A DNA stretch of 55,022 nt from positions 1 to 55,022 of the forward strand of contig JAIPAR010000002.1 in assembly GCA_021739985.1 (NCBI GenBank), given 5' to 3'. Of this stretch, positions 13,725 through 46,951 are shown one piece after another (position 1 is the first letter of the stretch; every line of letters starts with the position of its first letter). A program made the position numbers and the translations under genes. Below the pieces are notes generated by a model. It was not told the DNA's origin. It made no database searches and saw only the letters and a list, made by a program, of their open reading frames with translations. The stretch is from Bacteroidales bacterium (GTDB lineage: Bacteria; Bacteroidota; Bacteroidia; Bacteroidales; M50B96).

Positions 13725-13772
13725 AAAAAAGGCTGTCAAGGAAGCAATAGTTCCCGATAGCCTTTTTTTTTA
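13725..13772 (+). terminator. Rho-independent terminator after the aminopeptidase pair
   Basis: aaaaaaggctgtc … gatagccttttttttt stem with T-run. Confidence 0.8.
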
Positions 13773-14086
13773 TAATGAATCTCTTCAAAGGCTTGTAAAA
13801 GCTAATAAATTCAATAAAAAATAAGCGCATGAGGTTGAATAATATAAAAAAATAGATTATGTTTACTACTTGTATAAATTGGACTAGAAAATAACCAATT
13901 AAATAAGAATGATAGTTTTTAACTCGCTTGATTTCAGGCAAGTAGTGAATTATGGATTTGTTGCGTGTACTTATTCTTTAATAAGAAAATCAGTACATGA
14001 AATGATTTTGGGCGTTTTGGTAGCATGATTAAAAGGAAATAAAAGCATAAAAAGTACAGAATAATTAATAATTTAAACTTAACATT

Positions 14087-17000
14087 ATGAGAAACTCTAC
14101 AAATCTCGTTCAATTACCAAGCGGTAATGTTGTTTTCTCAAAGGTTAAATGGGTCGGGCTAATGCTCTCTCTGTTTACCCTATTGATGATAAACTTCAAT
14201 TCTTCTCTGGCGCAGCAGTGTGGTGTTAGTGTAACTTTTCAGACATCTGATTTCAATGGATCCGACGTTACTTGCTTCGGAGCAACAGATGGTTCTGTTA
14301 AAGCCTTACCTATCGGAGGAGCCACCTTTCAGTATCAGTATGCATGGGCGTCCAATACTGCAATCCCAAACCCTGGGAATAGCCAGGTTTGGTACAATCT
14401 TAGCGCTGGAACCTATACGGTAACAGTCACAGATATTAATATGTGTACTGCCGTCGGAACTGTTACCCTCACAAATCCTGCGGCACTTTCAATCACTGGT
14501 GTAACACATCAAGATGTAACCTGTAATGGGGAAGAGGATGGCTCAATTTCTGTTACCGGAGTCACTGGAGGGATGATGGATGTTAATCAAACCTATTATT
14601 ATTATTGGTATTTGACTGGCAATACGGATGTCTTTATTCCTGGCACCGGCAATAGCACTTCAATATCTAACCTATCAGGAGATTCCTACAAAATCGTTGT
14701 TGTTGATGCTAACAATTGTCAGGATTCTGAAATAATCGATGTTTTTGAAGCTGAAGGAATGACTAAAACAGGTGGGGCAATAACCCATCCATCCTGTTTT
14801 AATTATGAAGATGGCGAAATTGCCAATGTTATTATGGACGGTGGAGTTCTACCTTATTCCTACCAATGGTATAAAAATGGTAATATTCTTGTAAATGAAA
14901 CAACTGAGGGAATATCAAATATTGGAGATGGAACTTATACACTTGAAGTTACGGATCATGATGGATGCTCAAAATCATATACATTTAACGTAATAGAGCC
15001 AGCAGCAATCACTGCTAATGTTGTTTTAGTTGATGCAATTTCTTGTAATGGTACAAATGATGGTTCTTTAACTGTTGATATTTTACCTGTCGGCGGAATT
15101 TATGATATTATTTGGTCTGGATTAAATGTTAATGGGAATACAAATTTAACTATATCGAATTTGGTACCGGGAACCTATAGCGTTCAGGTACAAGATAACA
15201 ACGGCTGTCCTGCAACAGGTTCTGCCAGTGGCGATCCTAGTTTACCCGGAACCTGGACTTATGTCAATACAGGTATAAATCATACCTTCTATCTGGCTGC
15301 TGCCGATTATGGAATGATTGGAGGAACTCACCAAATTAGCGCAGGCGACTACCTGGGAGCTTTTGTTGGCAACCTTTGTGTTGGATATGCAGTTGTTGGA
15401 GCGGATAATACAGTTCTTACAGCATGGGCTAACGATTCTGAAACCGGTGGTAAAGATGGATTTGATAATGGTGATGTAGTTGAATTCAGATTATTCCGTC
15501 CTCTCGTAGATGAGTTTGTGATGGATAATGCAACTTTCGAAGTTATCCCGGGTACTGTTTCTAATGGAACGTTTTATGAAGAAGGTGCTTCTGTATTAAA
15601 TGGTCTTTCATTTCAAGATGTTTATCCAACTTCCAGTATTGCAATGACTCTCACTCAGCCAAGTGTTCTTATGGGATCAGCTGTGCCTACACATGTTTCA
15701 TGTAATGGTGATGAAGATGGCTCAATCAATTTAACTGTATCAGGTGGAACTTCACCTTATACTTTTGTATGGTCTCTTAATGGGTTGGTAACTGAAGATA
15801 TTTCAGATTTAGATGCAGGTAACTACATAGTCACAATTACAGACCATAACAATTGTGAGACCACAGCCAATGCTACAATCACTCAACCTGCTATTCTGTC
15901 TTTTAATGGTTCCGCTACAATTACTGACGTAGCTTGTCATGGTTTAAGCACTGGAATTATTCAGGCTCCTGCTATCGCTGGTGGAACAAGTCCTTATACT
16001 TATTTATGGAGCAATGCTGCTACAACTTCAAGTGTAACTGGCTTAAATGCTGGAACGTATGATTTAACTATTACAGATGCGCATAATTGCACCATTACTG
16101 ATTCATATGATGTTAACCAACCCGCTGCTGCACTTGCTGCATCAGGTATTACCACCAACATCAATTGTTTTGGTGATTTATCCGGAGGTATCAATTTGTC
16201 AGTTACTGGTGGAACAGCTCCTTATTCTTTTGCATGGTCCAATGTTGCAATTACAGAAGATCTCTCAAATGTAGCAGCAGGTAGTTATACCGTTACCGTT
16301 TCCGATGATCATTCATGTACTACTGTTGAGACTTTCCTTCTAACTCAACCGGTTGCAGCTCTTTCGTTCACCAATATTACGCTTTCGGAATACAATGGTT
16401 ACGGAGTTGAGTGCCCCGGAGATGATAATGGATCAATTAGTGTTTCAGTAACCGGTGGTTCTGAACCTTACAATTATAGTTGGTCAACAGGCAGCACGTT
16501 AAACAATATAAACACGTTGAGTGCAAATGTGTCATATGTGTTAACAGTTACTGATAATAAGGGTTGTACGCTTACAACTAGCCAAACACTTACTGAACCT
16601 GACGCATTATCCTTTACTAATGTGAATGAAAATGTACATTGTGTTAATGGTTCAAATGGATTAATAAATCTGACGGTATATAATGGTGTAACACCTTATA
16701 CTTATAGTTGGAGTAATGGTCAACAAACTCAAGACATTAGTTTACTTGTTGCAGGAAATTATAGCGTAACAGTTAGCGATGCTAATGATTGTCAACATGT
16801 TGAAAATTACACAATTACAGAACCATTAGCAATCTCAATTACAGAAGATTTTTCAGATTATAATGGCTACAATGTTCAGTGTAATGGTGGTGATAATGGA
16901 GAAATTGAACTTACTGTTTTAGGTGGGACTGCTCCTTATTTCTATGGATGGAGTCATGATGTGAATGCAACCACTGCTCTTGTAACAGATTTAGAAGCTG

Positions 17001-20000
17001 GAAGTTACACGGTTACCGTTACAGATGCATTTGGATGTACAGCTACCGAAATTTATACACTGGATGAGCCTACCGCAATGGTCGTTCAAGTTACTCCGAG
17101 TCCTGCTCTTTGTAATGGAGATGATAATGGTTCCATTCTTGTCAATATCGCAAATGCCATTGGAGATGTAACTATTACCTGGAATGGTGGGGGGCCAGTC
17201 ACTATTGACGAACTCAACAATGATTCTTATGGTATATTAGGATTATCTGCTGGTACTTATACGGTAACTGTTCAAGATGAAAATACTTGTTCAGCAGGAT
17301 CTGCTGTTGCCGCAACTCCTACAGGTTGGGACTATGTTGAAAATACGGGAGCTGATCATCAAATGATTGTACCTGTTGGTGGATTATTTGAAATCGCTCC
17401 AGGGATTCCAGTACAGAATGGCGACTATTTAGGAGTCTTCTTCGATGATAATGGTGATAAAGTTTGTGGTGGATTTCTTATCTATGATGGTGTAAATAAT
17501 TCTTTTGCAGTATGGGGAGATGATATTTTTACCATAGAGAAAGATGGCTTTTTAGAAGGTGAAGCTTTTGTATGGAAGATATTTAGACCTTTTGCCGGAG
17601 AATTTGATGCTTTTGTTACTTATGCTCCAATTGGTGGTTCTGTATTCAATACTAATTTGTTTGAAACAGATGGAACCTCTGCCATTACTGCCATGAATTC
17701 CAATATTGATTATGGTGAAGTTAACATCACAACTGCTGTAGTTAGTGAGCCGGAAGTGTTAGAAATAGTAAGTATGGTTGCCCCTTTAATTCAGTGTCAT
17801 GATGAAGTAACTAGTATTACAGCTAATGTTGAAGGTGGTACACTACCTTATACCTTTACCTGGTCTGGTGATGCATCAATAACTTCAGCAATTACGAACA
17901 AAATTGCCGGTACTTATGATGTAACAGTTACTGATGCAAATGCTTGTACGGCAATTGCACAGAAAGTAGTAAATAATCCAGACGCTATTGTATTCACTAT
18001 TGATACAGATGATGTTCTATGTTATGGGGACAATACTGGTTCAGCAGTTATCGCTACTGAAACTGGCGGATACGCCCCTTATACTTATACTTGGGAAGCT
18101 GGTCCAGCTACCTTGGCCTTTGGCACTTATCATGTTACTTTAACTGATGCTCAAGGTTGTACGGAAGTTGAAACATTCAATATTAATCAACCAGACACAT
18201 TAGTTACTACGGCTGCGATTACTCACGTTCTTTGCAATACAGCTGCTACAGGACAAATAGTTTTGACTACTATCGGTGGCACTGCACCTTATGATTATGA
18301 GTGGAGCGTTCCTGGTAATACCAATACAATTAGTAACCTGGTAGCTGGTTCCTATTCTGTCACCGTTGAAGATTTTCAAGGTTGTTTAAATATTCATACT
18401 ATCGCAATTACACAACCAGATCCTATTTCAATTTCTCAATTTACGATTAGTGATTATAATGGGTATGGTGTAAAATGTAATACAAGCACTGAGGGATTCG
18501 TAAATATTACTCCTGCAGGTGGGGTTGCTCCTTATTCCTATGAATGGTCTGATGGTCAAACCACACAAAACGCAATTAATCTGGCTGGTGGCTTAGGTGT
18601 AGTATATGATGTTACTATTACCGATCACAATTCATGCACTTTCACTAGTCAATCTTATGCGATTACTGCTCCTGATGCACTTTCTGCTGATGCTATCGTT
18701 ACTTCCTCTTTCAATACAAACATAGGAGGTCCATTTAATACTTCATGTAATGGTTTGGATGGAGAAGCTGAAGTTGCTGCAAATGGTGGTGTTGGAAATT
18801 ACTCCTATGAATGGAGCAATGGAGACTTAACTACTGAAATTGATGGACTTGCTGGTGGTACTTATACTGTAACAGTTACGGATGCAAATGCATGTACTAT
18901 TACTGATGTCATTACGGTTACAACTCCCGGACCTGTTAATGTTGAAATCAATCATGCTAGTGATTATAATGGTTTCGATGTAGCTTGTTATGGAGGTTCC
19001 AATGGCGGAATCCAATTAGATTGGGATGGTGGCGTTGGTGAATTCGATATCTACTGGGTAAACTGGGGCAATAATAGTAACTTAAATATTGCAAATCAAA
19101 CAATTACGGTTAACACATTCCCGGCTGGTACATTCTATGCTGTTATTGTTGATGCTAATGGATGTGCTGCTCAATCTTCTACAATTACTTTAGATCAGCC
19201 AACCGAAATTACTTTACCAAATCCTGCCGCATTTGCTCCTACATGTCATAATGGTAATGATGCATATATTGATATTACTAATATCACTGGTGGCTTTTCC
19301 GATGGCTTACATCCTTATACTGCTTCTTGGTTCTTCCCAAGTAATATTCCTTTCTCTTTGGGTCTGGTGCATACTGGTTTATCACCTGATATTACTTATA
19401 CTGGTCAAGTTACTGATGGAAATAATTGCTCTAAGTTGATTTATGTTACTACACCAAATATTTCTGAAATTGAGGTTAGTAATATCGCCGTTACAGATGT
19501 TTTATGCAATGGTGCCAGTACAGGTGAAATTACCGCTGATGTAATCGGTGGTCATGGTAACTATACTTTTGGAACCAACTTTGCAGGTCCTTATACGGCA
19601 AATGAAACAACTGGTTTAGCTGCTGGTACCTATACTTTATATGTTCGTGATGCACAAAATTGTACAGTTAATGTACCCAATATTGTTGTGGAAGAGAATT
19701 CACTTATTGTTCCAACAGAAGCAATTACCCATGTTGCATGTAATGGAGAAGCAAATGGTGCAATCACAATTACAACACTTGGCGGAATAGCTCCTTATTC
19801 ATATATATGGGCTGCACCAGTAAATTCAACAAATAGTGATATTGCTGGTCTTATTGCAGGTGACTATACAGTTACGATTACCGATAGCGAAAGTTGTGAA
19901 CGTTCATTTACCTATACTGTAACTGAGCCGGATGTACTTGAAATAACTGCTGCTATTGAAATTGATGCCAATTGCTACAATGCTGCCACTGGTCAAGTTG

Positions 20001-22819
20001 CTTTGACTCTTGCCGGAGGAACACTTCCTTATACCTATGCTTGGAGTAATGGCGCAGACGCTGCTACTAATTCCAACCTGGTTGATGGTTCTTATACCGT
20101 AACAGTTACTGATGCTCACAATTGTACAGTAACCGGTACATATACAATTACCGAACCTGCTGATTATACTTTTGTTGGAAGTACAACTACCAATGTTTCT
20201 TGCAATGGAGTAAATGATGGTGCAATTAATCTATCTATTCAAGGGGGTACTGGAATTATCGGATCTTTTGGATGGTCAAATTTAGAAACTACCGAAGACC
20301 TTGCTAATCTTATTGCTGGTACTTATACGGTTACTTTTGATGATGCTAATGGTTGCGATGGTACCACAGAATTCACGATAACTGAACCAGATGAGTTAGA
20401 AGTTTCGTTAATTAAAACAGACATCACCTGTAATAATTATAATGATGGTACTATTAATGCTACTATCGTTGGTGGAACTGAGCCTTACATTATCAAATGG
20501 AATAATATTCTTTCACCAGAAGATTTAATGGGTCTTGCTGCTGGTGTTTATGATATTGAGATAGTAGATGCTCATTCTTGTGTAGCAACAGCTTCAATTA
20601 CTATTAATAATCCTGCTGCCATTCTGTTAAGTGCAGATATCACTCCGGTGGCATGTTTCCAAGGTAATACTGGTGAAATCGAAATTACAGTTACAAATGG
20701 TGTTGGCCAATTAACTTATGCATGGACTGGCTCCGCTTCAACTTCTGCTATTGCAGAAAATCTTGAAGATGGAACTTATGCTGTTACTGTTACTGATGCT
20801 GGTAATTGTTTCGCTTCATTGGAAGGTTTAATCGTAGTTGAACCTACGCAGCTTACTTCATCTGTTCAAGTAATTGAAGAACAGTGTGTGAATTCAAATG
20901 ATGGGATGGCATTAGTTACAGGTTTAGGTGGTAATGATTCCCAAAATTATACTTACGTATGGAGCATGATTGGTGCTGGCACAACTGATACCGAATCAGG
21001 TATCGAGCCTGGTACTTATTCGGTTACGGTTAGTGATTACAAAGGATGTACATCAGCTAGTGTGTTTACGATTGATGCTGCTGTTCCAATGTCACTATCT
21101 TTAACTGCTATTGATGCTAGTTGTGAAAATAATACCACAGGTAGTGTAAGTGTACTTGCAACTGGTGGAACAGAAGTTTTTGACTATGAATGGTCAAATG
21201 GCTCTTTGCTTGGTAGTACAGGTGCTGTTGGTACAGGTACTTATTTTGTTACCGTTACAGACGGAAATGGTTGTACGGCAACTGGTTCTAAAACTGTCGA
21301 GGCTGATTTCTACTTCAACTTTGATAACGCTGTAAGTTCACCGGTTAGCTGTAATCAGGATGCTGATGGTAGCATTTTAGTTAATTTTGATAACTCACAG
21401 GCAGAGCATTATAGCTTCCAGTGGTATAATGCAAATCACATCGCTATTGGTGGAATTATCAATAATGCATTCACCACTACACTTGCCAATCAGGCAGCTG
21501 GAGACTATTTCCTGGTTGTTACAGCTTATCCTGCAAATGCTTGTTCAAAAGAGTATTCTTTCTCTATTACGGAACCTGACGAATTGTTAATCAGTAATTA
21601 TAATATTACAGATGCAAATTGTTATAAAACCAGTGATGGAGCAATTGATATCACAGTAACAGGAGGAAATGGAGGAAATACTTACAAGTGGATTAAAGGA
21701 GCGAATTTTATTGGAACAAATCAGGACATTACCGGCTTAAGAGCTGCTAATTACCAAGTTATTGTTACCGATAGTAAAGGTTGTTCAGTTATTGGACAGG
21801 CTGTCGTAGGGCAACCTGACTTCCTGACAACTTCATTTGCCAATACAAATGTTAGTTGTTTCAATGCTGGTAATGGTTTAATTAATCTTTCCGTAATTGG
21901 CGGGACCGCTCCATTTACTTATGCTTGGGGTGGTGGAATCACAACGGAAGATCGTTCAAATCTTGCACCGGGTGCATATAATGTGGTAGTAACTGACATC
22001 AATGGTTGTACAACTGCAAATACGATAACAATTACTCAACCTGCTATTTTAGCTGTAACGGATATTAGTCAATCAATTGAAAATTGTGACGAGGTCACTT
22101 TACAAGCTGATGTTACAGGTGGTACTTTACCTTATTATTTTAGTTGGGCAGATAATAATGCCTATGCACCTTTGTTAAGTCAAAATGAAACCATGTTTAC
22201 TGACAATGAAGATGTCTATTACCTGAAAGTCGTTGACGGTAATGGTTGCGTGATTGAGTCCACAGAAATTGTTGATTTGCCAACTCATATTGGTGTAAAC
22301 ATTACTCAAACACACAACAACATTAGTAATGTTTATGGAGCTATTGCAAATGTTACTAATGGAGCTGGAGGAACAACCTATTCTTGGAATACAGGTTCAA
22401 CGCTATCTGTCATTGCAAACCTAAATGTAGGATCAACTTATACTGTAACGGTTACAGATATGAATGGTTGTGAAGACACTGATGACATACAGATTGTTGC
22501 TGTCATGATTACTGATAATACCAATACTCCTGATCAAGATGTTACCTATTTAGAAGGTAATGATTTAATTTTGACAAATGTGGTGGTTTATCCTAACCCA
22601 AGTGCGAACGGAATATTTACCGTTCAAGTTGATCAGATAGATTTATCACATAGCTTCATCAATGTTGTTGATGCACTAGGAAGAATTGTATCTGCTTCTA
22701 TTACTTCTAAGAACTCTCAGGTAGAAATAAGTATTCCAGCAACTGTTGGTGTATATTACCTGCATATTATTACTGAGTCGAATGCTTTGATTACTAAACA
22801 GTTAATCATTAGCGAATAG
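14087..22819 (+). CDS. Giant SprB-repeat secreted protein (2910 aa) with C-terminal T9SS type A-like sorting domain
   Basis: N-terminal signal region; ~30 repeats of the form ITHVxCNGxxDGxIxLxVxGGTxPYxYxWSNGxxTxDLxxLxAGTYTVTVTDxxxCTxTxxxxIxxP (SprB repeat); C-terminal VVYPNPSANGIFTVQVD…GRIVSASI…VGVYYLHIITESNALITKQLIISE. Confidence 0.93.
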   Translation: MRNSTNLVQLPSGNVVFSKVKWVGLMLSLFTLLMINFNSSLAQQCGVSVTFQTSDFNGSDVTCFGATDGSVKALPIGGATFQYQYAWASNTAIPNPGNSQVWYNLSAGTYTVTVTDINMCTAVGTVTLTNPAALSITGVTHQDVTCNGEEDGSISVTGVTGGMMDVNQTYYYYWYLTGNTDVFIPGTGNSTSISNLSGDSYKIVVVDANNCQDSEIIDVFEAEGMTKTGGAITHPSCFNYEDGEIANVIMDGGVLPYSYQWYKNGNILVNETTEGISNIGDGTYTLEVTDHDGCSKSYTFNVIEPAAITANVVLVDAISCNGTNDGSLTVDILPVGGIYDIIWSGLNVNGNTNLTISNLVPGTYSVQVQDNNGCPATGSASGDPSLPGTWTYVNTGINHTFYLAAADYGMIGGTHQISAGDYLGAFVGNLCVGYAVVGADNTVLTAWANDSETGGKDGFDNGDVVEFRLFRPLVDEFVMDNATFEVIPGTVSNGTFYEEGASVLNGLSFQDVYPTSSIAMTLTQPSVLMGSAVPTHVSCNGDEDGSINLTVSGGTSPYTFVWSLNGLVTEDISDLDAGNYIVTITDHNNCETTANATITQPAILSFNGSATITDVACHGLSTGIIQAPAIAGGTSPYTYLWSNAATTSSVTGLNAGTYDLTITDAHNCTITDSYDVNQPAAALAASGITTNINCFGDLSGGINLSVTGGTAPYSFAWSNVAITEDLSNVAAGSYTVTVSDDHSCTTVETFLLTQPVAALSFTNITLSEYNGYGVECPGDDNGSISVSVTGGSEPYNYSWSTGSTLNNINTLSANVSYVLTVTDNKGCTLTTSQTLTEPDALSFTNVNENVHCVNGSNGLINLTVYNGVTPYTYSWSNGQQTQDISLLVAGNYSVTVSDANDCQHVENYTITEPLAISITEDFSDYNGYNVQCNGGDNGEIELTVLGGTAPYFYGWSHDVNATTALVTDLEAGSYTVTVTDAFGCTATEIYTLDEPTAMVVQVTPSPALCNGDDNGSILVNIANAIGDVTITWNGGGPVTIDELNNDSYGILGLSAGTYTVTVQDENTCSAGSAVAATPTGWDYVENTGADHQMIVPVGGLFEIAPGIPVQNGDYLGVFFDDNGDKVCGGFLIYDGVNNSFAVWGDDIFTIEKDGFLEGEAFVWKIFRPFAGEFDAFVTYAPIGGSVFNTNLFETDGTSAITAMNSNIDYGEVNITTAVVSEPEVLEIVSMVAPLIQCHDEVTSITANVEGGTLPYTFTWSGDASITSAITNKIAGTYDVTVTDANACTAIAQKVVNNPDAIVFTIDTDDVLCYGDNTGSAVIATETGGYAPYTYTWEAGPATLAFGTYHVTLTDAQGCTEVETFNINQPDTLVTTAAITHVLCNTAATGQIVLTTIGGTAPYDYEWSVPGNTNTISNLVAGSYSVTVEDFQGCLNIHTIAITQPDPISISQFTISDYNGYGVKCNTSTEGFVNITPAGGVAPYSYEWSDGQTTQNAINLAGGLGVVYDVTITDHNSCTFTSQSYAITAPDALSADAIVTSSFNTNIGGPFNTSCNGLDGEAEVAANGGVGNYSYEWSNGDLTTEIDGLAGGTYTVTVTDANACTITDVITVTTPGPVNVEINHASDYNGFDVACYGGSNGGIQLDWDGGVGEFDIYWVNWGNNSNLNIANQTITVNTFPAGTFYAVIVDANGCAAQSSTITLDQPTEITLPNPAAFAPTCHNGNDAYIDITNITGGFSDGLHPYTASWFFPSNIPFSLGLVHTGLSPDITYTGQVTDGNNCSKLIYVTTPNISEIEVSNIAVTDVLCNGASTGEITADVIGGHGNYTFGTNFAGPYTANETTGLAAGTYTLYVRDAQNCTVNVPNIVVEENSLIVPTEAITHVACNGEANGAITITTLGGIAPYSYIWAAPVNSTNSDIAGLIAGDYTVTITDSESCERSFTYTVTEPDVLEITAAIEIDANCYNAATGQVALTLAGGTLPYTYAWSNGADAATNSNLVDGSYTVTVTDAHNCTVTGTYTITEPADYTFVGSTTTNVSCNGVNDGAINLSIQGGTGIIGSFGWSNLETTEDLANLIAGTYTVTFDDANGCDGTTEFTITEPDELEVSLIKTDITCNNYNDGTINATIVGGTEPYIIKWNNILSPEDLMGLAAGVYDIEIVDAHSCVATASITINNPAAILLSADITPVACFQGNTGEIEITVTNGVGQLTYAWTGSASTSAIAENLEDGTYAVTVTDAGNCFASLEGLIVVEPTQLTSSVQVIEEQCVNSNDGMALVTGLGGNDSQNYTYVWSMIGAGTTDTESGIEPGTYSVTVSDYKGCTSASVFTIDAAVPMSLSLTAIDASCENNTTGSVSVLATGGTEVFDYEWSNGSLLGSTGAVGTGTYFVTVTDGNGCTATGSKTVEADFYFNFDNAVSSPVSCNQDADGSILVNFDNSQAEHYSFQWYNANHIAIGGIINNAFTTTLANQAAGDYFLVVTAYPANACSKEYSFSITEPDELLISNYNITDANCYKTSDGAIDITVTGGNGGNTYKWIKGANFIGTNQDITGLRAANYQVIVTDSKGCSVIGQAVVGQPDFLTTSFANTNVSCFNAGNGLINLSVIGGTAPFTYAWGGGITTEDRSNLAPGAYNVVVTDINGCTTANTITITQPAILAVTDISQSIENCDEVTLQADVTGGTLPYYFSWADNNAYAPLLSQNETMFTDNEDVYYLKVVDGNGCVIESTEIVDLPTHIGVNITQTHNNISNVYGAIANVTNGAGGTTYSWNTGSTLSVIANLNVGSTYTVTVTDMNGCEDTDDIQIVAVMITDNTNTPDQDVTYLEGNDLILTNVVVYPNPSANGIFTVQVDQIDLSHSFINVVDALGRIVSASITSKNSQVEISIPATVGVYYLHIITESNALITKQLIISE
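15248..15613 (+). other. Nested ~120-aa module, copy 1, inside a SprB repeat
   Basis: GTWTYVNTGINHTFYL…ISAGDYLGAFVGNLCVGYAVVGADNTVLTAWANDSETGGKDGFDNGDVVEFRLFRP… shares its motif order with copies 2 and 3. Confidence 0.75.
17324..17706 (+). other. Nested ~120-aa module, copy 2, inside a SprB repeat
   Basis: GWDYVENTGADHQMIVP…VQNGDYLGVFFDDNGDKVCGGFLIYDGVNNSFAVWGDDIFTIEKDGFLEGEAFVWKIFRP…. Confidence 0.75.
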
Positions 22820-22830
22820 CAAACTAATAT

Positions 22831-22860
22831 TAATCGGATGGTGGTAACACCATCCGATTA
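22831..22860 (+). other. Intercistronic perfect hairpin between the two giant genes
   Basis: taatcggatggtg-gtaa-caccatccgatta: 13-bp perfect stem, GTAA (GNRA-type) loop, no following T-run. Confidence 0.85.
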
Positions 22861-22883
22861 TTAAATAAATAAATATTAGCCAT

Positions 22884-28800: not shown

Positions 28801-31800
28801 CATTAAATGCATGGAATGACAATACACTTCATCAGGCTGCTGGTACCAGCTATTGTACAATTGATGCTACGAACATGAGTAGCCTTGAATTATTGGTCGA
28901 TGTAAAACAAGTGTTTGCAAGTTCACCTACTAATTCATGGTTTAGAGTTTTGGTTAATGGGGCTGCTGTTACTGGCAATTATAACCCAATTACTGCCAAC
29001 GATTCATATCAAACAATTACTGTAGATTTAGATGCTTATCTGGCTGCTCCGTTTACATTGGAATTCCAGACTGCTAATAATACAGCTAATGATAAAGTCT
29101 ATCTGGAGAATATTCTGATTCGTGAAAAACAAGCGGATATTGCCTTAACTGGTATTAGTATTGGGAACCCTGTCTGTAGTTTTACGGCTAATGAAACAGT
29201 TAGCGTCACTTTAGTAAATGAAGGTGGCTTACCGTTAACCGGTTTTGATTTAGCTCTTGCTGTTAACGGATTTACGGTTGCAACTGAGACCTATTTAGGA
29301 ACAATAGCTGTAGGTGCATCTGCGACTTACAATTTTACTGATGTTGACTTATCTTCTCTTGGACAGATTGAATTAGTTGCAACCGCGACTCTCGCTGGAG
29401 ATATTGATAATCTAAATAATTTCAGTAACTTATCAATCTATAATACACCAGTTTATTCAAGTTATCCATTTATTGAAAATGAGTTAAACTTTGAAAACTA
29501 TTGGTTAGCAGGTGGTACTAATTCATCTTGGATTTTCACAAATGGTGTATGGGAGACTGGAGCTGGTGCTCTTAGCTATAATAATAATGAAAGTTCAGCA
29601 ATCACTTCACCTTGTTTTGATTTCACAAATCTTACCGATCCGGTTGTTCAATTTGATCTGAGCTATGTGACAGAAAACAATGTTGACTTTTTGAAATTTG
29701 AATACAGTGTTAATGGAGGTGCATGGACTACGCTTACCAATGCATTAGGTGCTACAAATTGGACCATTAGTTCAGGAACATTTGCTTTGCAAACCTTAAC
29801 TGCTAACACAGGCTTGGGAGGTAATTCATCTGTTAAGTTTAGAGTTTCAATTAATAGTGATGAGGCCGATACTTATACCGGAATTAGCTTTAGCAATTTC
29901 AGAATATTTGATATGCCAGATTTAACTATCACTAGCATTACACCTGCAACTGTTTGTTCAGATGCTGATTTCAATGTTTCGATGACTGTTAAAAATGCTG
30001 GTGATCAATTATTAGCATCTGGGACTTCGCTAACTTTAGCCTATACGATTAATGCGCAAACTACAACTGAAACCTTTACATTAGGAAGCGATTTGGCTGC
30101 CGGTGCTTCCACTTTATTTGTATTTACAAATTCAAGTGTTATCACTAATGTTAATCCATATGCAATTTCTGCTATCGTAACTACCAATTTCGATTATAAT
30201 ACTGCAAACAACACATTTAATGGTTCCGTGGACGTAATTCCTGCTCCAGTAATTGGTGCAGCTACGAATATTGGATTATGTGAAGGCAATTCAATTACAT
30301 TAACTGCAACGGGTGGTGTAACTTACGTATGGTCAGGCGGTGTTGTTCAGGGAGTTCCTTTCTTCCCAACTCAAACTACAACCTATACGGTTACAGTTAC
30401 AAACGCATTAGGTTGTCAGGCAACTTCAGAGGTATTGGTAGAAGTTCATCCATTACCAGTGGCCAGCGCAGGTCCTGAACAATTTGTTTGTTCGGGCTCA
30501 ACAGCTGTTGTTACAGCAACAGGAGGTACAAATTACCAGTGGATAAATGGAGGTAATACTGCTTCATTCTCTTATGTGGTAAATAGTACAGAGACTTTTT
30601 CTGTAATTGTCAGCGATGCTAATGGATGTAGTGATTATGCTGTAGTTACTGTTAATGAATTGGATTTACCAATTGCAACAGTTTCCCTTGATGAAACAAT
30701 TTGTTTAGGAGAGGAAGCTACACTTATTGCTGGTGGAGGTAATTCTTACACATGGAGTTCAGGTGATAACACGGGAACGGCACTAGTGAGTCCTCTTGTG
30801 ACAACAACTTATACCGTTACTGTTTACAGTTTGGAGATGTGTGAAGACATTGAAACTGTTGATATTACAGTTATAAATCCTCCAGTAATTACAGTTGCAG
30901 ATGTAGCTGGAAATCATTGTTACCAAGGTACCGAAGGTAGTATCGATTTGACCGTAACAGGTTCAGCACCTATAACCTATACCTGGGAAAATAATGTTTC
31001 CACGACTAGTTCTGTCGATAACTTGCCAGCTGGAAATTATACTGTAACTATACAAGATTCGTATGGAACTCAGTGCCAGATTGTAGCTACCTACACAATT
31101 ACCCAGCCTAATGGGGCTGTAGTAGCAACTATCATTGATAATTCAGGTAATACTGGTTACGGAATTGGCTGTAACGGTGGAAATGATGGTTCATTGATAG
31201 CATTTGGAATGAATGGCACGGCACCCTTTGATTACGTATGGAATAATAGTGTGAACACTGCGATTAATCCTGGGTTAGAAGCAGGTTCTTATACTGTTAC
31301 TGTTACAGATTTTTATGGTTGTACAGCAACAAGTTCATACATGGTTACAGAACCTGATGCAATTAGTTCAACCATTAATGTAACTGATGTTACATGTAAT
31401 GGAGCACAAAATGGAGTAATTTCTGTTTCTACCTTAGGTGGAGTTCAACCTTATACATATACTTGGGGTCCATCGAATACAATTACTGCAACTGGTACTC
31501 TTTCTAACTTAAGCGGTGGTGCCTACACAGTATTGGTAACTGACGCAAATGGTTGCACCTGGACTGGAGCCACTAATGTATTTGAACCAACAGCATTATC
31601 TTATAACACTGTATTACAATCAAGCTATAATGGTTATGGCATTAGCTGTCCTGGTGGCAATAATGGCTATATTGAGGTTGAAGGTATTGGCGGTAATGGG
31701 AATTATAGTTTCAATTGGAGTCAAGGTGCAACTTCAGCATCACTTACTAATCTGACTGCTGGAACTTATACTGTTACCATTACAGATGCGAAAGACTGTT

Positions 31801-34800
31801 CAGTTACTCATTCTTATATATTAACTGCTCCACTCTTTATGGCAACCTCTACGCAGGCCACAATGGTTAGTTGTTTTGGTGGCTCAAACGGAGCAATTAA
31901 TCTAAATGTACTTGGAGGAGTTTCTCCGTATGCATTTGTTTGGTCATCTGGCCAGCTTAGTGAGGATCTTACAGGTATAACTGCAGGAACCTATACCGTT
32001 ACCATATCTGATGATAATGGTTGTACAACCACAAAATCTGCTACTATTACTCAACCATCTCAATTAGTGACCAATGCAACAGTAAGTAGTAATTGGCACG
32101 GAGCGGATGTTTCGTGTCCAGGCAGTGCTGATGGTTCTGCAACAGTAAGCGTAAGCGGTGGAACTAGTCCTTACTCATACCTTTGGACTACAGAGGGAGG
32201 AGGAATCACACCAACAGTTAATGCATTGGGAGCTGGAACTTATTCGGTTACTGTAACGGATACAAAAGGTTGTACCTCTGTATCAACAGTTACATTAGTT
32301 GACCCTACTCCAGTTACTGCTACAGCTAGTGCAACAAGTTCTTATGGGCCAATGGCTTACAATGTATCTTGTTTTGGAGGGAATAATGGTTCAGCTACTG
32401 TTCTTGCAAATGGAGGTACCTCACCATACACATACGAATGGTCACAGCCAAGTGGTAATTTAGCAACAGTAAATACTTTAACAGCAGGATTAAAAACCAT
32501 CACGGTTACAGATGCTAATGGTTGTGATGTGACAACCACTGTTACACTTACTGAACCTAGCGCATTGGTTGCGGATATTAATGTTGTAAATACTATTTCT
32601 TGTACGAATGATCATGATGGCTCACTTACAGTGCTTGCATCTGGTGGAGTAGGAGTTTATTCATACCTTTGGAGTTCTGCTTTAGGTACAAGTTCTACTA
32701 TATCTGGACTTGGTGCGGGGAGTTATTCAGTAACTGTTAGTGACGAAAATGCTTGTACAGTTATAGATTCATATACATTGACAAATCCAGCACCTGTTGT
32801 TGCTGACTTAGTAATTACATCAAACTATAATGGATACTCAGTTAGTTGTAATGGCTCAACCGATGGTTCTTTACAAATAAATGCGAGCGGTGGAACAGGT
32901 ACTTATAGTTACCATTGGAATCATGATGCTGCTAATAACACCAATATTGCAGTTGGCGTACCCGCTTTAGCTTATATTGTAACTGTAACTGATAGCAAAG
33001 GCTGTACTGCCTCTGATTTTGTTCTAATGACTCAACCTGATGCTCTTGCATCTGTTGGTACACTTTCAAACTATAATGGATCAGGTGTTTCTTGCTTTGG
33101 TTCAAATGATGGTGAGATTAGTGTAGTAACTTCGGGTGGGGTTGGTGCATTAACTCTCAATTGGAGTAACGCATTAGGCAATTCTTCATCGGTAACCGGA
33201 TTATTTGCTGGAACTTATACTTTAAGTGTTTCCGATATCAATAATTGTGTGTCTAGTTTTGATTATATCCTTACTGAACCAGTTGCTTTATCAGCAGTTT
33301 TCACATCCTCAGATTTCAATGGATTTGATGTTAGTTGTAATGGTGCTTCCGATGGCATTCTTACGGTTGCTGGGGTTGAAGGTACCAGTCCTTATACCTA
33401 TGTTTGGGGTGATGGTTCAACCGATGCTACAATTTCAGATTTGACTGCAGGCATCTATTACGTAACTGTTACTGACGAGAACGATTGTACATTTGCTACA
33501 TCTTTCACTCTTATTCAACCAGAAGTATTTGCAGTAGCAAGTGTTTTCGCTACCTCTAACTATGATGGATATAATGTATCCTGTAGTGGCAATACTGATG
33601 GCGCTGCAAGTCTTACATTGAGCAATGGCATTGAACCATTCATTTACGAATGGTCAAATGGAGAAGTAGGCAGTTCACCGATTGAATTAGCTGGTGGTTT
33701 ATCAAGTGTTACGGTAACGGATGCAAATAATTGTGAAGCTATTGGACAGGTTATTCTGACTGCTCCAGTCGTATTTACAGCAAGTGCTGTAGTTACAAGC
33801 AATTATAATGGTTTAGATGTTACTTGTAACGGTTCAACCAATGGAGTAATTGAAGCTATGCCGGGAACTGGTTTTGCACCATTTACTTATATATGGTCAA
33901 CTGGTGCAACAACCAAAGTTGTTAGCAATCTTGGCGCAGGCACTTATTTTGTCACCGTTACTGATAACCATGGTTGCGAAACAACCAGTTCAGTACAAGT
34001 TACAGATGCTGCACCTATTTCTTACACATTTGTTCAGGAGAATGTAGATTGTCATGGCAATAATAATGGAAGCGTTGATATAACGGTAAATGGAGGTACT
34101 AGTGGAAACTATATGTATTTCTGGAGTAATTCAACCAATGGGGAAGATGTAAATAATCTGGCTCCTGGTATGTACTACTTCCTCGTTATTGATATGAATT
34201 GGTGTCACAAGGTTTCAGAAATCTTCATGATTACAGAACCGGACCAGTTATTGGTTGATGCTCAGGTTACATCCGATTATAATGGATTTGGAGTAAGCTG
34301 TAATGGATCTGCTAATGGTGAAATTGAAGCTACAGTTACCGGTGGGGTTCAGCCTTATACTTATAGCTGGAATGGAAATGTATCAGGTGCTACTTTAAGC
34401 TCAGCTACTGCTGGCAATTATAATGTCCTCGTTACAGATGCAAATAATTGCGTTGCTAGTGCTTCTGCGATTGTAACAACTCCAGACCCAATTGTTGTCG
34501 ATATTATTGCTTCAAATTATCATGGCTTTAATGTAAGTTGCAATGGTGCTGCCGATGGTATCGTTACCGCAAGTGTATTAAGTGGTGGTGTTAATCCATT
34601 TACATATTCCTGGTCTGGTGGTTATTCAACTTCACAAGTTGGAAATCTACCTGTAGGAAATTATGTAGTAGTTGTTACAGATGCTAGCGGATGTACAGGA
34701 ACTGCCAATATTACTTTAACAGAACCTGCAAGTCTTAATGTAGCCTTATCATCATTAGCCAGTTATGGTGGGTTTGATGTTAGCTGCTCGAATGGTGCAG

Positions 34801-37800
34801 ATGGAGAGGTTGGTACTGTTGTTAATGGTGGCGTTGGGCCATACACTTATACCTGGAATACAGGAGCTGTTACTTCCACTGTTAGTGGATTATCAGCTGG
34901 AATGGCTAGTGTAACAGTTAGCGATGTGAATGGTTGCTTAACTACTGGTTCAATTATCTTGACTTCCCCGACATTGCTCGAAGCCGAAATTTCGGTTAGT
35001 CAGGAAATCACTTGTTTTGGAGCATCAGATGGCGCATTAACAGTTGCTGTTAACGGTGGTTTTGCCGGATATACCTATATGTGGTCAACAGGTGCCGTTG
35101 GATCAATGATTTCTAATGTTCCTGCAGGCTTATATTCTGTAACTGTTACCGATGCATTAGGATGTAATACTGTTGCAGAATTTGAATTCACTTCAGTAGC
35201 ACCTATGATTATGACTGTAGATGTTACCAATATTACCTGTAATGGATTAACAAATGGAAGTGCAACCGCTAATGTAACTGGTGGAACCGCTCCTTATTCG
35301 TTCTACTGGAATAATGGTTCAACTAATTCAACTTTAACAAACCTAAGTGCTGGTTTATATTATGGATTTGCACTTGATGTTAATAATTGTGCTACTAATT
35401 TTGTTCCATTTATGGTTTACTCGCCGGCTAGTTTAAGTCTAACTGCTAACGTCTCCAATGTAAGTTGCAATGGAAATAACGATGGTACAATCGATTTAAC
35501 GGTAAACGGGGGAACAGAGCCATTTACTTATAACTGGTCAAATGGAGCAAATACTCAGAACTTAACAGGATTAGACGGTGGTGATTTCACGGTTACTGTT
35601 ACAGATGGTGGAAATTGCGAAACCATTAGTACATTTACTGTACTTGAAGGTGATGCCTTTGTTGTAAATGTTGTTTCAACTGATGCAGATTGCCAGAATG
35701 GTGGTTTTGGTTCAGTAGATATGACGATAACAGGTGGTGTTCAACCCTATACTGTCACCTGGTCAACCGGTGAAAATACTGAAGATTTGGCTGGATTAAG
35801 TGCAGGAACCTATACAGTTACTGTACTGGATGCAGGTGCTTGTAGTTTTACCCATACGATTTCTATCGCAAATGTTAGTCCAATCACCGTTAGTGCAATT
35901 GGAACAGATGTAAATTGCTACGGAGGAAACGATGGGGCAATTGATCTTACTGTTGGCGGAGGAAGCGGAAACTATTATTATAATTGGGTTGGACCAAATT
36001 ACGGCGTATCAACTCCATTTACATGGGATTGGTTTAATACAGGCGCAAATCATACGATTTTAGTGCCTCCGACTTTAGATGTTAATCTGAATGGAAGCCA
36101 AATTGCAGTAGGCGATATCATTGGTGTATTCTATGATAACAATGGTGTTCTTGTATGCGGTGGATATGCTGAATGGACTGGAGATGTTACTTCAATTGCT
36201 GCATGGGGAGCCGAAACAGGGCTTGATAATGGATTCCAGGATGGAGAAGCCTATACCGTCAAAGTATGGCAAGCTGCTACTGGATTAACCTATGATGTTA
36301 CTGCGGTATTTGATTTAGCTTTCCCCAATGGCGCTACGTATGCGTTAAATGGAATGTCAGGATTTGAATCATTAAGTGCTGCGATTCCTTCTGATTTAAG
36401 CAACCTTACTGCTGGAACTTACTCAGTTATTGTTTCTGATTCTCAGGGATGTACAGGTACAGCAACAGCAATTGTGGAGCAACCCGACCAATTAAATATA
36501 GCAGTTAGTTCAACTGATATTTCCTGTATGAATTCAGTAGATGGAACGGTCTCAGCTATTGTTAATGGCGGAACAGGTTCATATTCCTACAACTGGAGTA
36601 ATGGTGGTACGGATGCTAGTCTTGTCGGTTTGAGTTCAGGAACTTATGATTTAACAGTAATGGATGCAAATATGTGTTCCATGGTTACTTCAGTTGAAGT
36701 TAATGCGCCCGCATTCTTTATGGCAGGAATGACTATTAATCCAACCTATGTTGGTGGCAACAACGGGGAAATTGATCTGGTTGTAACAGGTGATAACGGA
36801 CCATTTACTTATTTGTGGAGCAATAATGCTACTTCGCAAGATTTGACAGGTTTAACAGAAGGAACTTATGCTGTTACAGTTTATGTTGGAGCATGTAGTT
36901 ACACTGCTGAATATATTCTGCTTTCAGGTGAAACACCAGATGCTCTCATTGTAAGTGCTTCTGATGTAAGTCAGGTTACTTGTACGGGAGGCTCAAATGG
37001 TGCCATTGATATCAGTGTGTCTGGTGGTGTTCAGCCATATAGCTATAACTGGAGTAATGGTTCTCAATCACAGGATCTTAGTGGTTTAACTGCAGGAACC
37101 TATGTTGTTACTATAACTGACGCTGCTCCAATTATGAGTACAGTTGTTGAAACATATATCATTTCAGAACCTGTTTCTTTGATGACCATGACTTATGTGA
37201 CGGATGAAGCAACATCTTGCTTAAATGATGGTTCGATTGACATTACAGTTGAAGGCGGAACATCTCCATATGTATTTAATTGGAGTAATGGAAACACAAA
37301 TGAAGATTTGTTAGCTGCCGGTGGAGGTCTGTATTTCGTTGAAATTACAGACGCTAATGGTTGTACATATCAATCTGCATCGATAGGTATTGTTTCTTTC
37401 GAAATGGATCTTAGTATTTCAATTACACCCAATACTTGCAATGGTGGTAGCGAAGCAACGGTATCAGTAATTGTAAATAATCAACTTCCTCAATCTTTCT
37501 TATGGTCAAATAATGCAACGCTTGATTATGTTGAAAACCTGACAGCAGGTACATATCAAGTTACTGTTACTGACTATTATGGATGTAGTGTAGTAGAAAG
37601 CGTCGTTGTTACTGATCCTAATCCGATAGTTGTGTCTATTGCAACTGGTAGTATTGGTTTTACAGCCACTGTAGTTAGTGGTGCAACAGGACCAGTAAGC
37701 TATATGTGGAGTAATGGTAAACCTTATCAAAGTATTAAAAACCTGGTTTCAGGAACAACATACTGCGTAACGGTTACTGATGCAAATGGTTGTACAGGTA

Positions 37801-38138
37801 CAGCTTGTGCTGTTTGGGGAGCTGCTTCAATGCCTATGGCTAGTAGTTTAACTAAAGATGAAATCGTTGCAAGTTTAACTGAGGGTGATTTCAATCTATA
37901 CCCAAATCCAACTCAAGATGGTAATATTACTATTGGCTTGCCAGCCGTTGAGTTAGATAACATGTTACTTGAGGTATATGATAATACTGGTCGATTATTA
38001 TTTGTTGAGAATTATTCTCACTTATATGATTCGAATGTAAGCTTATCTCTGAATATTAGGGATGCTGGTATTTACCATGTACGAATGATTCTGAATAATA
38101 GTCATGCGATTAACAAACGGATGATTGTAGTCAGATAG
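22884..38138 (+). CDS. Giant multidomain secreted protein (5084 aa): MAM/choice-of-anchor-like + CARDB-like array, Ig/PKD-like domains, ~29 SprB repeats, T9SS type A-like sorting domain
   Basis: N-terminal signal MKKYYILLSLFISVALSSFGQ; repeated …FP(Y/F)xExFEgxxxxW…SSWE…FDFTxLxxPxIxFxLxYxTExxxDGAxLexSxxGGxxWxxxG… modules each followed by a …DLAVTxIxxPxxxCxxTxxExVTVxVxNxG… module; long SprB array; C-terminal FNLYPNPTQDGNITIGLP…AGIYHVRMILNNSHAINKRMIVVR. Confidence 0.93.
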   Translation: MKKYYILLSLFISVALSSFGQQVLLQENFNSAAAIPAGWETILNDGTGNPSEWEVGSNLSSASFVIPANDGNYAVSNDNACSCSLLADKIITPSINFTGVTGAFLRFKSFLPSQLYPSDSKGFIFLVDAGNNFIFVDEINTNVSWTTTEIPLTAANGNMRIAFVHSDSLALADFGGWAIDDVQVLVPYSHDLTITSLISPVSGCMTNSEALAISIKNVGTQIANNFSVNYILNGGTPVNHNFTNLGLASGQVHNYTFLDPVNLNGGAANNIVVSVVWANDLNVSNNSLSSIVSRDSTLTVGTIETFNGNTSYMYDVEANAKATASLSNSQAVLGGINAPGWTGGVGNTTAANAWNDNSAFHSSVVLACNGGQVPQINKSLELSFDLRQETGSSVLYNWFGVFVNNVQIADQNGVLNFNPLTQNADIFVTRTFNLSAFKNTAFTLELRASTKNSTDKVFIDNIIVNERNEFDAGVVSILSPESNCGLTATQNLQLTIKNYGLTSLINVPIYYQVDNGTAQLAGIYAGPLAIGATSSTITFNNLPMSALANAGSHTLKVYTFVSGDNLNSSNDYQIINLINQPEIAIFPYEEDFEGNSNWSFSGTNSSWEIGIPAGVEITPTVAGSKALITNADGNYNYNEVSYATSPCFDFTSLSNAYIEFSLNVHSDPEDDGAQIQYSINNGAWTLLGTVPAPPNPTNWYFDNVTSLGNTGGWSAETNEWITASYDLGNAPFANAANVRFRVKFASDNDNTGPLGNVDYDGIAIDNIYIGESQANFDLKANGITAPSSGSNLSNSESISVLVTNTGLQAITSFNVSYQVNALPVVTETFNQAIASGASATVTFSTGADFSTVGTYTITATVDLAADGNVTNNSTSSTIINELLVNTYPYTENFDGLNHQWVSGGVFSSWQLVVPTGTSVVGDPLTSPATDLVWVTNANAGGYYNSENSYVQSPEFDFTNLIEPAVSMRISYNTEPDSDGARLEISTDGGITFSAVGVLATPPNVENWYVNPVDAFGGAAGWTGTRSWVNATQDLTAFAGQASVIFRVYFKADANVSDEGFAFDDFSVIEAAPHDLAVTAWTTQPTGCGLTNAEAITITVQNNGVFAETEFDATYTIDLDGNLVTVTETVSGINLAPNTSMNYTFQQLANFDATGSYVCSATVTIPNDASAGNNTVNEIINSFDVISTFPAVYTFETSDGGWFTGGTNSSFELGVPAAGNTVINAAAEGAKAWVSNLDGSHNASENSYLESQCYNFSGILVPAISFDYIINTEIFNGTIAFDGARLEVSIDGGTTWSVVGNVNDTTNWYNYATISNFNETQGWAGTTASWTHTTYQLDNLANAPSVKFRFAFKTDGFNTSLYEGFGVDNIRIFNDMPNDVAVTAIASLDNCEFINDVDVTITVKNFAVGYTHMAGTQIPVSFTFDGNTYNENLTLAANLAPGETVNYTFTATIDIPAANSYAISATTNLQFDLDGANDEFTTSFNSYATPILSETITNVTCFGLMDGSIALANNPGFTYLWSVNANSAITEGVSNLAAGSYFVTITSGNNCVLEAGPILVTEPTELTASGVYTNATCNGASDGSIDVTINGGTLPYSAIWNAGAYTSEDLSGIGAGVYTLVISDDNSCTETLSFTLIDATSLPLTEAFEGLALPAGWARSQHASSVGWEFGTNINHATLPFFAIPAHTGYAAANDNKNDDFSAALNLATEDRLITPRLDLSGYTHVNLQFDAFFEGFSDIATFEVTMNGGTSWNTVWTLTSNSAWQEDLSINLDAFIDHCDVQFAFKYNDGGEWGNGFAIDNVSIVGTVQPQFDLAATAIIAPAGNSCTFTANEPVTVSVSNLGTDLASGASLALEVNGQTLATEVLPNINSGATINYTFLTGFNFDAAGSYAITASIVWVNDLEAGNNTVSGSLVSYPTISSFPYMEDFNDGDFDAFAVSNGAEASASFAGGALVFAGGNPLIGWTGGASATALNAWNDNTLHQAAGTSYCTIDATNMSSLELLVDVKQVFASSPTNSWFRVLVNGAAVTGNYNPITANDSYQTITVDLDAYLAAPFTLEFQTANNTANDKVYLENILIREKQADIALTGISIGNPVCSFTANETVSVTLVNEGGLPLTGFDLALAVNGFTVATETYLGTIAVGASATYNFTDVDLSSLGQIELVATATLAGDIDNLNNFSNLSIYNTPVYSSYPFIENELNFENYWLAGGTNSSWIFTNGVWETGAGALSYNNNESSAITSPCFDFTNLTDPVVQFDLSYVTENNVDFLKFEYSVNGGAWTTLTNALGATNWTISSGTFALQTLTANTGLGGNSSVKFRVSINSDEADTYTGISFSNFRIFDMPDLTITSITPATVCSDADFNVSMTVKNAGDQLLASGTSLTLAYTINAQTTTETFTLGSDLAAGASTLFVFTNSSVITNVNPYAISAIVTTNFDYNTANNTFNGSVDVIPAPVIGAATNIGLCEGNSITLTATGGVTYVWSGGVVQGVPFFPTQTTTYTVTVTNALGCQATSEVLVEVHPLPVASAGPEQFVCSGSTAVVTATGGTNYQWINGGNTASFSYVVNSTETFSVIVSDANGCSDYAVVTVNELDLPIATVSLDETICLGEEATLIAGGGNSYTWSSGDNTGTALVSPLVTTTYTVTVYSLEMCEDIETVDITVINPPVITVADVAGNHCYQGTEGSIDLTVTGSAPITYTWENNVSTTSSVDNLPAGNYTVTIQDSYGTQCQIVATYTITQPNGAVVATIIDNSGNTGYGIGCNGGNDGSLIAFGMNGTAPFDYVWNNSVNTAINPGLEAGSYTVTVTDFYGCTATSSYMVTEPDAISSTINVTDVTCNGAQNGVISVSTLGGVQPYTYTWGPSNTITATGTLSNLSGGAYTVLVTDANGCTWTGATNVFEPTALSYNTVLQSSYNGYGISCPGGNNGYIEVEGIGGNGNYSFNWSQGATSASLTNLTAGTYTVTITDAKDCSVTHSYILTAPLFMATSTQATMVSCFGGSNGAINLNVLGGVSPYAFVWSSGQLSEDLTGITAGTYTVTISDDNGCTTTKSATITQPSQLVTNATVSSNWHGADVSCPGSADGSATVSVSGGTSPYSYLWTTEGGGITPTVNALGAGTYSVTVTDTKGCTSVSTVTLVDPTPVTATASATSSYGPMAYNVSCFGGNNGSATVLANGGTSPYTYEWSQPSGNLATVNTLTAGLKTITVTDANGCDVTTTVTLTEPSALVADINVVNTISCTNDHDGSLTVLASGGVGVYSYLWSSALGTSSTISGLGAGSYSVTVSDENACTVIDSYTLTNPAPVVADLVITSNYNGYSVSCNGSTDGSLQINASGGTGTYSYHWNHDAANNTNIAVGVPALAYIVTVTDSKGCTASDFVLMTQPDALASVGTLSNYNGSGVSCFGSNDGEISVVTSGGVGALTLNWSNALGNSSSVTGLFAGTYTLSVSDINNCVSSFDYILTEPVALSAVFTSSDFNGFDVSCNGASDGILTVAGVEGTSPYTYVWGDGSTDATISDLTAGIYYVTVTDENDCTFATSFTLIQPEVFAVASVFATSNYDGYNVSCSGNTDGAASLTLSNGIEPFIYEWSNGEVGSSPIELAGGLSSVTVTDANNCEAIGQVILTAPVVFTASAVVTSNYNGLDVTCNGSTNGVIEAMPGTGFAPFTYIWSTGATTKVVSNLGAGTYFVTVTDNHGCETTSSVQVTDAAPISYTFVQENVDCHGNNNGSVDITVNGGTSGNYMYFWSNSTNGEDVNNLAPGMYYFLVIDMNWCHKVSEIFMITEPDQLLVDAQVTSDYNGFGVSCNGSANGEIEATVTGGVQPYTYSWNGNVSGATLSSATAGNYNVLVTDANNCVASASAIVTTPDPIVVDIIASNYHGFNVSCNGAADGIVTASVLSGGVNPFTYSWSGGYSTSQVGNLPVGNYVVVVTDASGCTGTANITLTEPASLNVALSSLASYGGFDVSCSNGADGEVGTVVNGGVGPYTYTWNTGAVTSTVSGLSAGMASVTVSDVNGCLTTGSIILTSPTLLEAEISVSQEITCFGASDGALTVAVNGGFAGYTYMWSTGAVGSMISNVPAGLYSVTVTDALGCNTVAEFEFTSVAPMIMTVDVTNITCNGLTNGSATANVTGGTAPYSFYWNNGSTNSTLTNLSAGLYYGFALDVNNCATNFVPFMVYSPASLSLTANVSNVSCNGNNDGTIDLTVNGGTEPFTYNWSNGANTQNLTGLDGGDFTVTVTDGGNCETISTFTVLEGDAFVVNVVSTDADCQNGGFGSVDMTITGGVQPYTVTWSTGENTEDLAGLSAGTYTVTVLDAGACSFTHTISIANVSPITVSAIGTDVNCYGGNDGAIDLTVGGGSGNYYYNWVGPNYGVSTPFTWDWFNTGANHTILVPPTLDVNLNGSQIAVGDIIGVFYDNNGVLVCGGYAEWTGDVTSIAAWGAETGLDNGFQDGEAYTVKVWQAATGLTYDVTAVFDLAFPNGATYALNGMSGFESLSAAIPSDLSNLTAGTYSVIVSDSQGCTGTATAIVEQPDQLNIAVSSTDISCMNSVDGTVSAIVNGGTGSYSYNWSNGGTDASLVGLSSGTYDLTVMDANMCSMVTSVEVNAPAFFMAGMTINPTYVGGNNGEIDLVVTGDNGPFTYLWSNNATSQDLTGLTEGTYAVTVYVGACSYTAEYILLSGETPDALIVSASDVSQVTCTGGSNGAIDISVSGGVQPYSYNWSNGSQSQDLSGLTAGTYVVTITDAAPIMSTVVETYIISEPVSLMTMTYVTDEATSCLNDGSIDITVEGGTSPYVFNWSNGNTNEDLLAAGGGLYFVEITDANGCTYQSASIGIVSFEMDLSISITPNTCNGGSEATVSVIVNNQLPQSFLWSNNATLDYVENLTAGTYQVTVTDYYGCSVVESVVVTDPNPIVVSIATGSIGFTATVVSGATGPVSYMWSNGKPYQSIKNLVSGTTYCVTVTDANGCTGTACAVWGAASMPMASSLTKDEIVASLTEGDFNLYPNPTQDGNITIGLPAVELDNMLLEVYDNTGRLLFVENYSHLYDSNVSLSLNIRDAGIYHVRMILNNSHAINKRMIVVR
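36018..36383 (+). other. Nested ~120-aa module, copy 3, inside a SprB repeat of the second giant protein
   Basis: FTWDWFNTGANHTILVPP…IAVGDIIGVFYDNNGVLVCGGYAEWTGDVTSIAAWGAETGLDNGFQDGEAYTVKVWQ…. Confidence 0.75.
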
Positions 38139-38142
38139 ATGC

Positions 38143-38184
38143 AAAAAAAAGAAAGGCTGTCTCGTGGAGGCAGCCTTTTTTTTT
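38143..38184. terminator. Bidirectional Rho-independent terminator, first of a tandem pair
   Basis: aaaggctg…cagccttttttttt; T-rich tracts on both strands. Confidence 0.85.
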
Positions 38185-38225
38185 GAGTATAATCCAAACT
38201 CATTTGGATTATACTCAATTTTTTT
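38185..38225 (+). terminator. Second tandem terminator after the giant genes
   Basis: gagtataatccaaa-ctca-tttggattatactc (14-bp perfect stem) followed by aattttttt. Confidence 0.85.
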
Positions 38226-46943: not shown

Positions 46944-46951
46944 ATGCAGGA

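Follow-up and report, generated by a model that had tools for sequence, protein, structure and literature searches.

Giant proteins that combine SprB repeats with a type A tail are common and unexplained, and SprB-repeat proteins with T9SS tails have previously been noted as unexplained substrates (PMC7073777). The window analysed here, a stretch of 55,022 nt that is an entire contig of a 1.9-Mb, 60% complete MAG of an uncultured Bacteroidales bacterium, holds two such genes in tandem and raises the question of whether they form a unit and whether their products are gliding adhesins or something else. As the sequence-only reading had described, ORF A (2910 aa) and ORF B (5084 aa) are both on the + strand and lie 64 bp apart. 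We consider it fairly probable that they constitute a two-gene operon for two giant T9SS cargo proteins, which would serve as static, adhesive surface fibres or be shed into a matrix, with an intergenic hairpin setting their ratio. Proteins of this kind are known already; the novelty lies in the kept two-gene arrangement, its private hairpin and an expanded nested domain that has no family model. The synteny, the hairpin, the nested domain and the MAM-like/CARDB head of B had escaped the sequence-only reading. The genes and the parts of their products are located as follows (window coordinates):

14087-22819, + strand: gene A, 2910 aa; SprB-repeat stalk and type A tail, with orthologues in G001 and G002 (see below)
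14087-14212, + strand: extended signal peptide of A, MRNSTNLxxLPxGxxxFSKVKxxGLM..., from the alignment of A orthologues; putative cleavage site
14219-22501, + strand: 31 SprB repeats of A, ~78 aa each, by our own profile (Pfam gives 25 stretches)
15248-15622, + strand: nested domain, slot 1 of A, inside an SprB repeat after its second Cys
17321-17710, + strand: nested domain, slot 2 of A, in another SprB repeat at the same insertion point as slot 1
22586-22810, + strand: T9SS type A sorting domain of A (PF18962, TIGR04183)
22884-38138, + strand: gene B, 5084 aa; MAM-like/CARDB head, SprB-repeat stalk and type A tail
22953-30263, + strand: head of B, eight MAM-like modules with a CARDB-like domain after each
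30279-37805, + strand: SprB-repeat stalk of B (Pfam and our own profile)
36018-36389, + strand: nested domain, slot of B, inside an SprB repeat in the loop after the Trp strand; same place in the G002 orthologue
37896-38129, + strand: T9SS type A sorting domain of B (PF18962, TIGR04183)

Domain scans detected SprB repeats and sorting domains in both proteins (PF13573, PF18962 and TIGR04183), as the sequence-only reading had anticipated. The Pfam model of the SprB repeat (PF13573, gathering score 28) matched A with 613 bits (E 3e-189) and the C-terminal half of B with 657 bits (E 5e-203), and a profile of our own, built from the repeats themselves, placed 34 repeats in the whole of B. The description of the two proteins as SprB-repeat giants thus stood for A and for the C-terminal half of B, but the first half of B turned out to be made of MAM-like/CARDB modules. 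This head of ~2,400 aa consists of eight homologous units, in which Pfam found CARDB five times above threshold along with matches to InhA-like MAM and to the Reelin subrepeat, and it includes two SprB repeats (27318-27806). Most SprB repeats carry two cysteines ~50 residues apart, a spacing that suggests one disulphide per bead. The extended signal peptide was found in four family genomes at the start of A only, except for one weak match (E 0.42) that spans a stop.

Both sorting tails belong to class A. Por_Secre_tail (PF18962) was above its Pfam cut-off in A (E 2.5e-13) and in B (E 5.5e-14), and the NCBIfam type A model TIGR04183 (cut-off 23) gave 44.5 bits (E 1.2e-11) and 37.9 bits (E 1.3e-9), respectively, while the type B model TIGR04131 (NCBIfam) matched neither protein; ten type B tails occur elsewhere in the same genome. 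The contrast that had been drawn between these type A tails and the type B tail of SprB is correct. So is the underlying premise that the genome possesses a T9SS, since SprA (TIGR04189) is present with 2602 bits, accompanied by 93 matches to the type A tail. SprA was also found in three relatives from the family, which encode full-length GldJ and full-length PorU; of PorU, our own 60% complete genome holds fragments only.

The pair is not a product of chance, because two other genomes have these same genes in the same location, the Bacteroidales MAGs M50B96 (G001) and Tobar12.5m-G22 (G002, JAIOYV01). In G002, which belongs to another genus of the same family, the block pepP (M24 peptidase)-A-B-nitrilase-IDH-POT-YjeF is present, with an A of 5351 aa, a B of 6102 aa and a gap of 73 bp; in G001, from the same genus, the block begins identically and A is complete, the contig ending inside B. 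The gap between A and B is thus kept at 64-73 bp in three genomes. Only our own genome, G001 and G002 gave homologues of the start of B that exceed 36% identity across the full query, and the stretch examined beside pepP contained no such pair in seven genomes from other families within the order. The proteins themselves have drifted far, with orthologue identities of 37% for A and 39-47% for B. As best matches of single repeats are uninformative for orthology, we used path scoring instead, comparing collinear with permuted repeat order: the order in A was collinear between our genome and G001 (z 11.6), between our genome and G002 (z 7.2) and between G001 and G002 (z 7.7), as was that in B between our genome and G002 (z 9.2). 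The repeat arrays are accordingly old and differentiated by position, and the greater length of A in G002 apparently reflects a gain of ~30 repeats. We rejected gene conversion between A and B as well as a tandem duplication of recent date: median repeat identity was 36-39% within a protein and 36-40% between species, and the A versus B control showed weak collinearity (z 2.3). The gene pair is old and conserved across two genera, and because pair, gene order and hairpin were kept while the proteins drifted apart, we regard it as real and selected. In this respect it differs from the SprB-repeat type A substrates encoded beside TANFOR toxin genes, which share the repeats and the sorting tail: A and B gave no TANFOR match, and they form a syntenic two-gene unit with a hairpin conserved across two genera (PMC7073777).

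Elements that would delimit a transcription unit surround the pair, and a hairpin lies between its genes:

13725-13768, + strand: intrinsic terminator following the peptidase gene upstream of A (inverted repeat I14), left boundary; dG -20.7, z -5.0, U run after it
13835-13865, + strand: candidate promoter TTG-N20-TATGTTTA, Bacteroidota-type -33/-7
22832-22859, + strand: intergenic hairpin AATCGGATGG-N8-CCATCCGATT; 13-bp stem, 4-nt loop, no U run, z -7.1
38146-38183, + strand: intrinsic terminator behind B, right boundary; dG -24, z -5.6, U run after it

The candidate promoter resembles the -33/-7 promoter of Bacteroidota, and its TTG and TTATGTTTACT are invariant and equally spaced upstream of A in three genomes; a generic sigma-70 promoter scan returned nothing beyond chance level. 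No promoter-like site was identified before B. The co-expression that had been proposed for the pair hence gains support from one conserved promoter-like site, the flanking terminators and the kept gap of 64-73 bp, and A and B are probably co-transcribed as one operon, the promoter ~220 nt upstream of A presumably driving transcription of the two as far as the terminator that follows B. Directly after this terminator lies a second palindrome, a perfect one of 16 bp (TTGAGTATAATCCAAA/TTTGGATTATACTCAA, window 38183-38218), which was not seen behind the B of G002.

As opposed to both flanking terminators, the intergenic hairpin lacks a U run; it starts 12 nt past the stop of A. Our own genome (G000), G001 and G002 each have one occurrence of its pattern, which in every case stands between A and B; it is absent from the fourth family genome (G003), and a reversed control pattern had zero occurrences in the genomes searched. 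A family-wide repeat element was ruled out by this single copy per genome. All 13 stem pairs are kept in the three sequences, and two apical pairs are altered on both sides in a compensatory manner, although this conservation rests on three sequences (n=3) and a DNA palindrome would show a like symmetry. Identity across the three genomes was 85-92% in the stem and 62-75% in the rest of the intergenic stretch, so that the surroundings are fairly conserved too. The hairpin has the conservation and the place, behind the upstream gene, that are expected of an intercistronic stabilising stem-loop (SRPS). In the cip-cel operon of Clostridium cellulolyticum, which encodes a large surface complex and has intercistronic stem-loops, such structures at the 3' ends of the genes determine the ratio of the subunits; ratio control was experimentally demonstrated there, whereas for A and B we have the conserved hairpin alone (PMC4423207). 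By analogy we infer that the hairpin tunes the A:B ratio, most likely by shielding the 3' end of the A mRNA, and on the cip-cel model the A mRNA would outlast the B mRNA. An appreciable, if smaller, chance attaches to the palindrome being a DNA operator or an attenuator before B rather than an mRNA-stabilising hairpin: it is near-perfect and conserved, and symmetric changes preserve a DNA palindrome and an RNA stem alike. The compact 4-nt loop on a 13-bp stem so close behind the stop of A is, however, what is expected of a 3'-end hairpin, and the position of the promoter-like site, before A, also speaks against an operator of B.

What, then, of gliding? SprB of F. johnsoniae, a gliding adhesin of 6497 aa (PMC9870892), shares with A and B the giant size, the PF13573 repeats and T9SS export, but it has a type B tail and the shuttle/anchor SprF, whereas the tails of A and B are of type A and their scanned neighbours include no PorP/SprF gene; the MAM-like/CARDB head of B and the nested domain of both are further differences. 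In F. johnsoniae the type B tail of SprB directs any cargo to the gliding machinery, and SprB given a type A tail becomes immobile or is shed; type A tails there lead to static anchoring or to release, which is complete with the tail of AmyB (PMC12618676). As the tail decides the fate of its cargo in that organism, A and B should be static or shed fibres. That one or both would instead be mobile adhesins driven by the GldLM motor, counterparts of SprB or RemA, is unlikely in our view, although SprB repeats, full-length GldJ in the family and a gldE-like ORF in the window would suit it, and although RemA is an adhesin with a type A tail that is nevertheless partly mobile and involved in gliding (PMC12618676). 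RemA and AmyB resemble A and B in this tail, and hence in the PorV shuttle, but their bodies, a lectin adhesin and an amylase, are unrelated (PMC12618676). Against mobility stands, besides the halt that a type A tail imposes on SprB, the fact that a type B tail (CHU_C) and an adjoining PorP/SprF gene do accompany other SprB-repeat proteins encoded in this genome. One of them (C7; L067:2629-12121), a beta-helix/PKD/SprB-repeat protein of 2852 aa, ends in a type B tail and is followed by a PorP/SprF gene, and from its sequence it appears the better candidate for a mobile or gliding adhesin. The sequence-only reading had also pointed out that gldE and gldD share the window with the pair, a proximity from which nothing about gliding can be read. 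The pair is preceded by succinate dehydrogenase and two M24 peptidases and followed by nitrilase, isocitrate dehydrogenase and a POT transporter; the gldE-like ORF, next to mutY and ssb, is separated from the pair by 15 kb with housekeeping genes in between, and scores 326 bits against the curated GldE cut-off of 376, and gldD is at most a possible stub of 34 codons at the contig end. Given the other tail class and a gldE 15 kb off among unrelated genes, a role of A and B as gliding adhesins of the SprB type is improbable. The gldE-like ORF itself (window 53240-54922) has no recognisable N-terminal part, and a 60-bp unit repeated 3.1 times (SSVSVTGQGKAEVGNASMQA; 53492-53677) stands in place of the membrane domain. 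DsbD-like and thioredoxin-like proteins are encoded at window 45915-49147, 8 kb from the cysteine-rich giants, probably by coincidence.

A different comparison arose from the fold of the repeats. A model of an SprB-repeat pair (pLDDT 96) showed two Ig-like beads in tandem, and in a fold search with it fragments of GhpA, the grappling-hook protein of Aureispira sp. CCB-QB1, ranked 1, 3, 4 and 9. GhpA is likewise a giant T9SS chain of Ig-like modules and gave the best fold match, and its size and secretion route are similar, so that A and B might form a multimeric hook or cell-to-cell fibre that holds other cells. We regard this as quite improbable: the Foldseek match to 9flw (E 3.6e-5, TM 0.55) has an unspecific score that any tandem Ig chain could reach, GhpA, a protein of 5898 aa that forms a heptamer, comes from one gene and not from two, and the likeness is at the level of single domains. 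With no full-length similarity (no phmmer match; profile E 0.084), it is a likeness of parts and not of membership. The SprB-repeat profile also matched the phage neck-whisker/head-decoration proteins 9occ, 5lxk, 8zvi and 9e99 (E 5e-6 to 1e-4), hinting that Ig-like beads are common to phage decorations and T9SS giants. It is similarly hard to credit, if a little less so than a hook, that the cell releases A and B as matrix or scaffold proteins and does not hold them at all. Full release does follow from some type A tails, such as that of AmyB (PMC12618676), and AmyB-like and RemA-like outcomes are indistinguishable from sequence; but the relatives carry the attachment sortase PorU, and an architecture of stalk plus head suits anchoring.

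For the operon of static or shed fibres that we prefer, the course of events can be sketched on the model of P. gingivalis and F. johnsoniae. A and B would be exported first by Sec and next through the SprA translocon, helped by PorV, the shuttle for type A tails, and PorU would remove the tails and anchor the proteins via their C-terminal end. The SprB repeats, folding as Ig-like beads, may give a stalk of very roughly 100-150 nm, which in B would carry the N-terminal MAM-like/CARDB head at its far tip, where it would probably bind the ligand; in A, binding is likely to fall to the nested domains of the outer part.

The nested domain is represented in A and B by three stretches of ~125 aa. 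It matched no Pfam model, and a comparison with PDB sequences gave no convincing match; an AlphaFold model was all-beta with moderate confidence (pLDDT 77) and retrieved no PDB fold at E < 0.001. The slots in A and B are identical in the orthologues. Gene order, repeat order, nested domains and an RNA element have thus been kept at ~37-47% protein identity, which argues that selection acts on the arrangement itself and makes concrete questions testable: does RNA set the ratio of two probable giant adhesins, and what is the ligand of the nested domain? A bolder version, in which A and B are subunits of one heteromeric giant fibre with a ratio fixed by the hairpin, and the nested domain acts as a novel binding module, expanded in this lineage, that slots into SprB-type Ig beads, seems to us rather doubtful, though less so than gliding, release or a hook.

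The nested domain is hyper-expanded in this Bacteroidales family: we counted 28 copies in our own genome and 45, at least 71 and 56 in three other members, as compared to at most five copies in 3 of 56 other genomes of the order and 1-5 copies each in 25 of 395 other genomes sampled from the phylum. With dozens of copies per genome in one family, it deserves a family model. The genome with at least 71 copies, Tobar12.5m-G22 (G002), carries them in open frames of up to 7308 aa, an extreme repertoire of giant surface proteins, and proteins with the nested domain often have a second, shorter and diverged relative of it, of the GDEIGVF type, further downstream (L038, L039, L043, L044 and L048).
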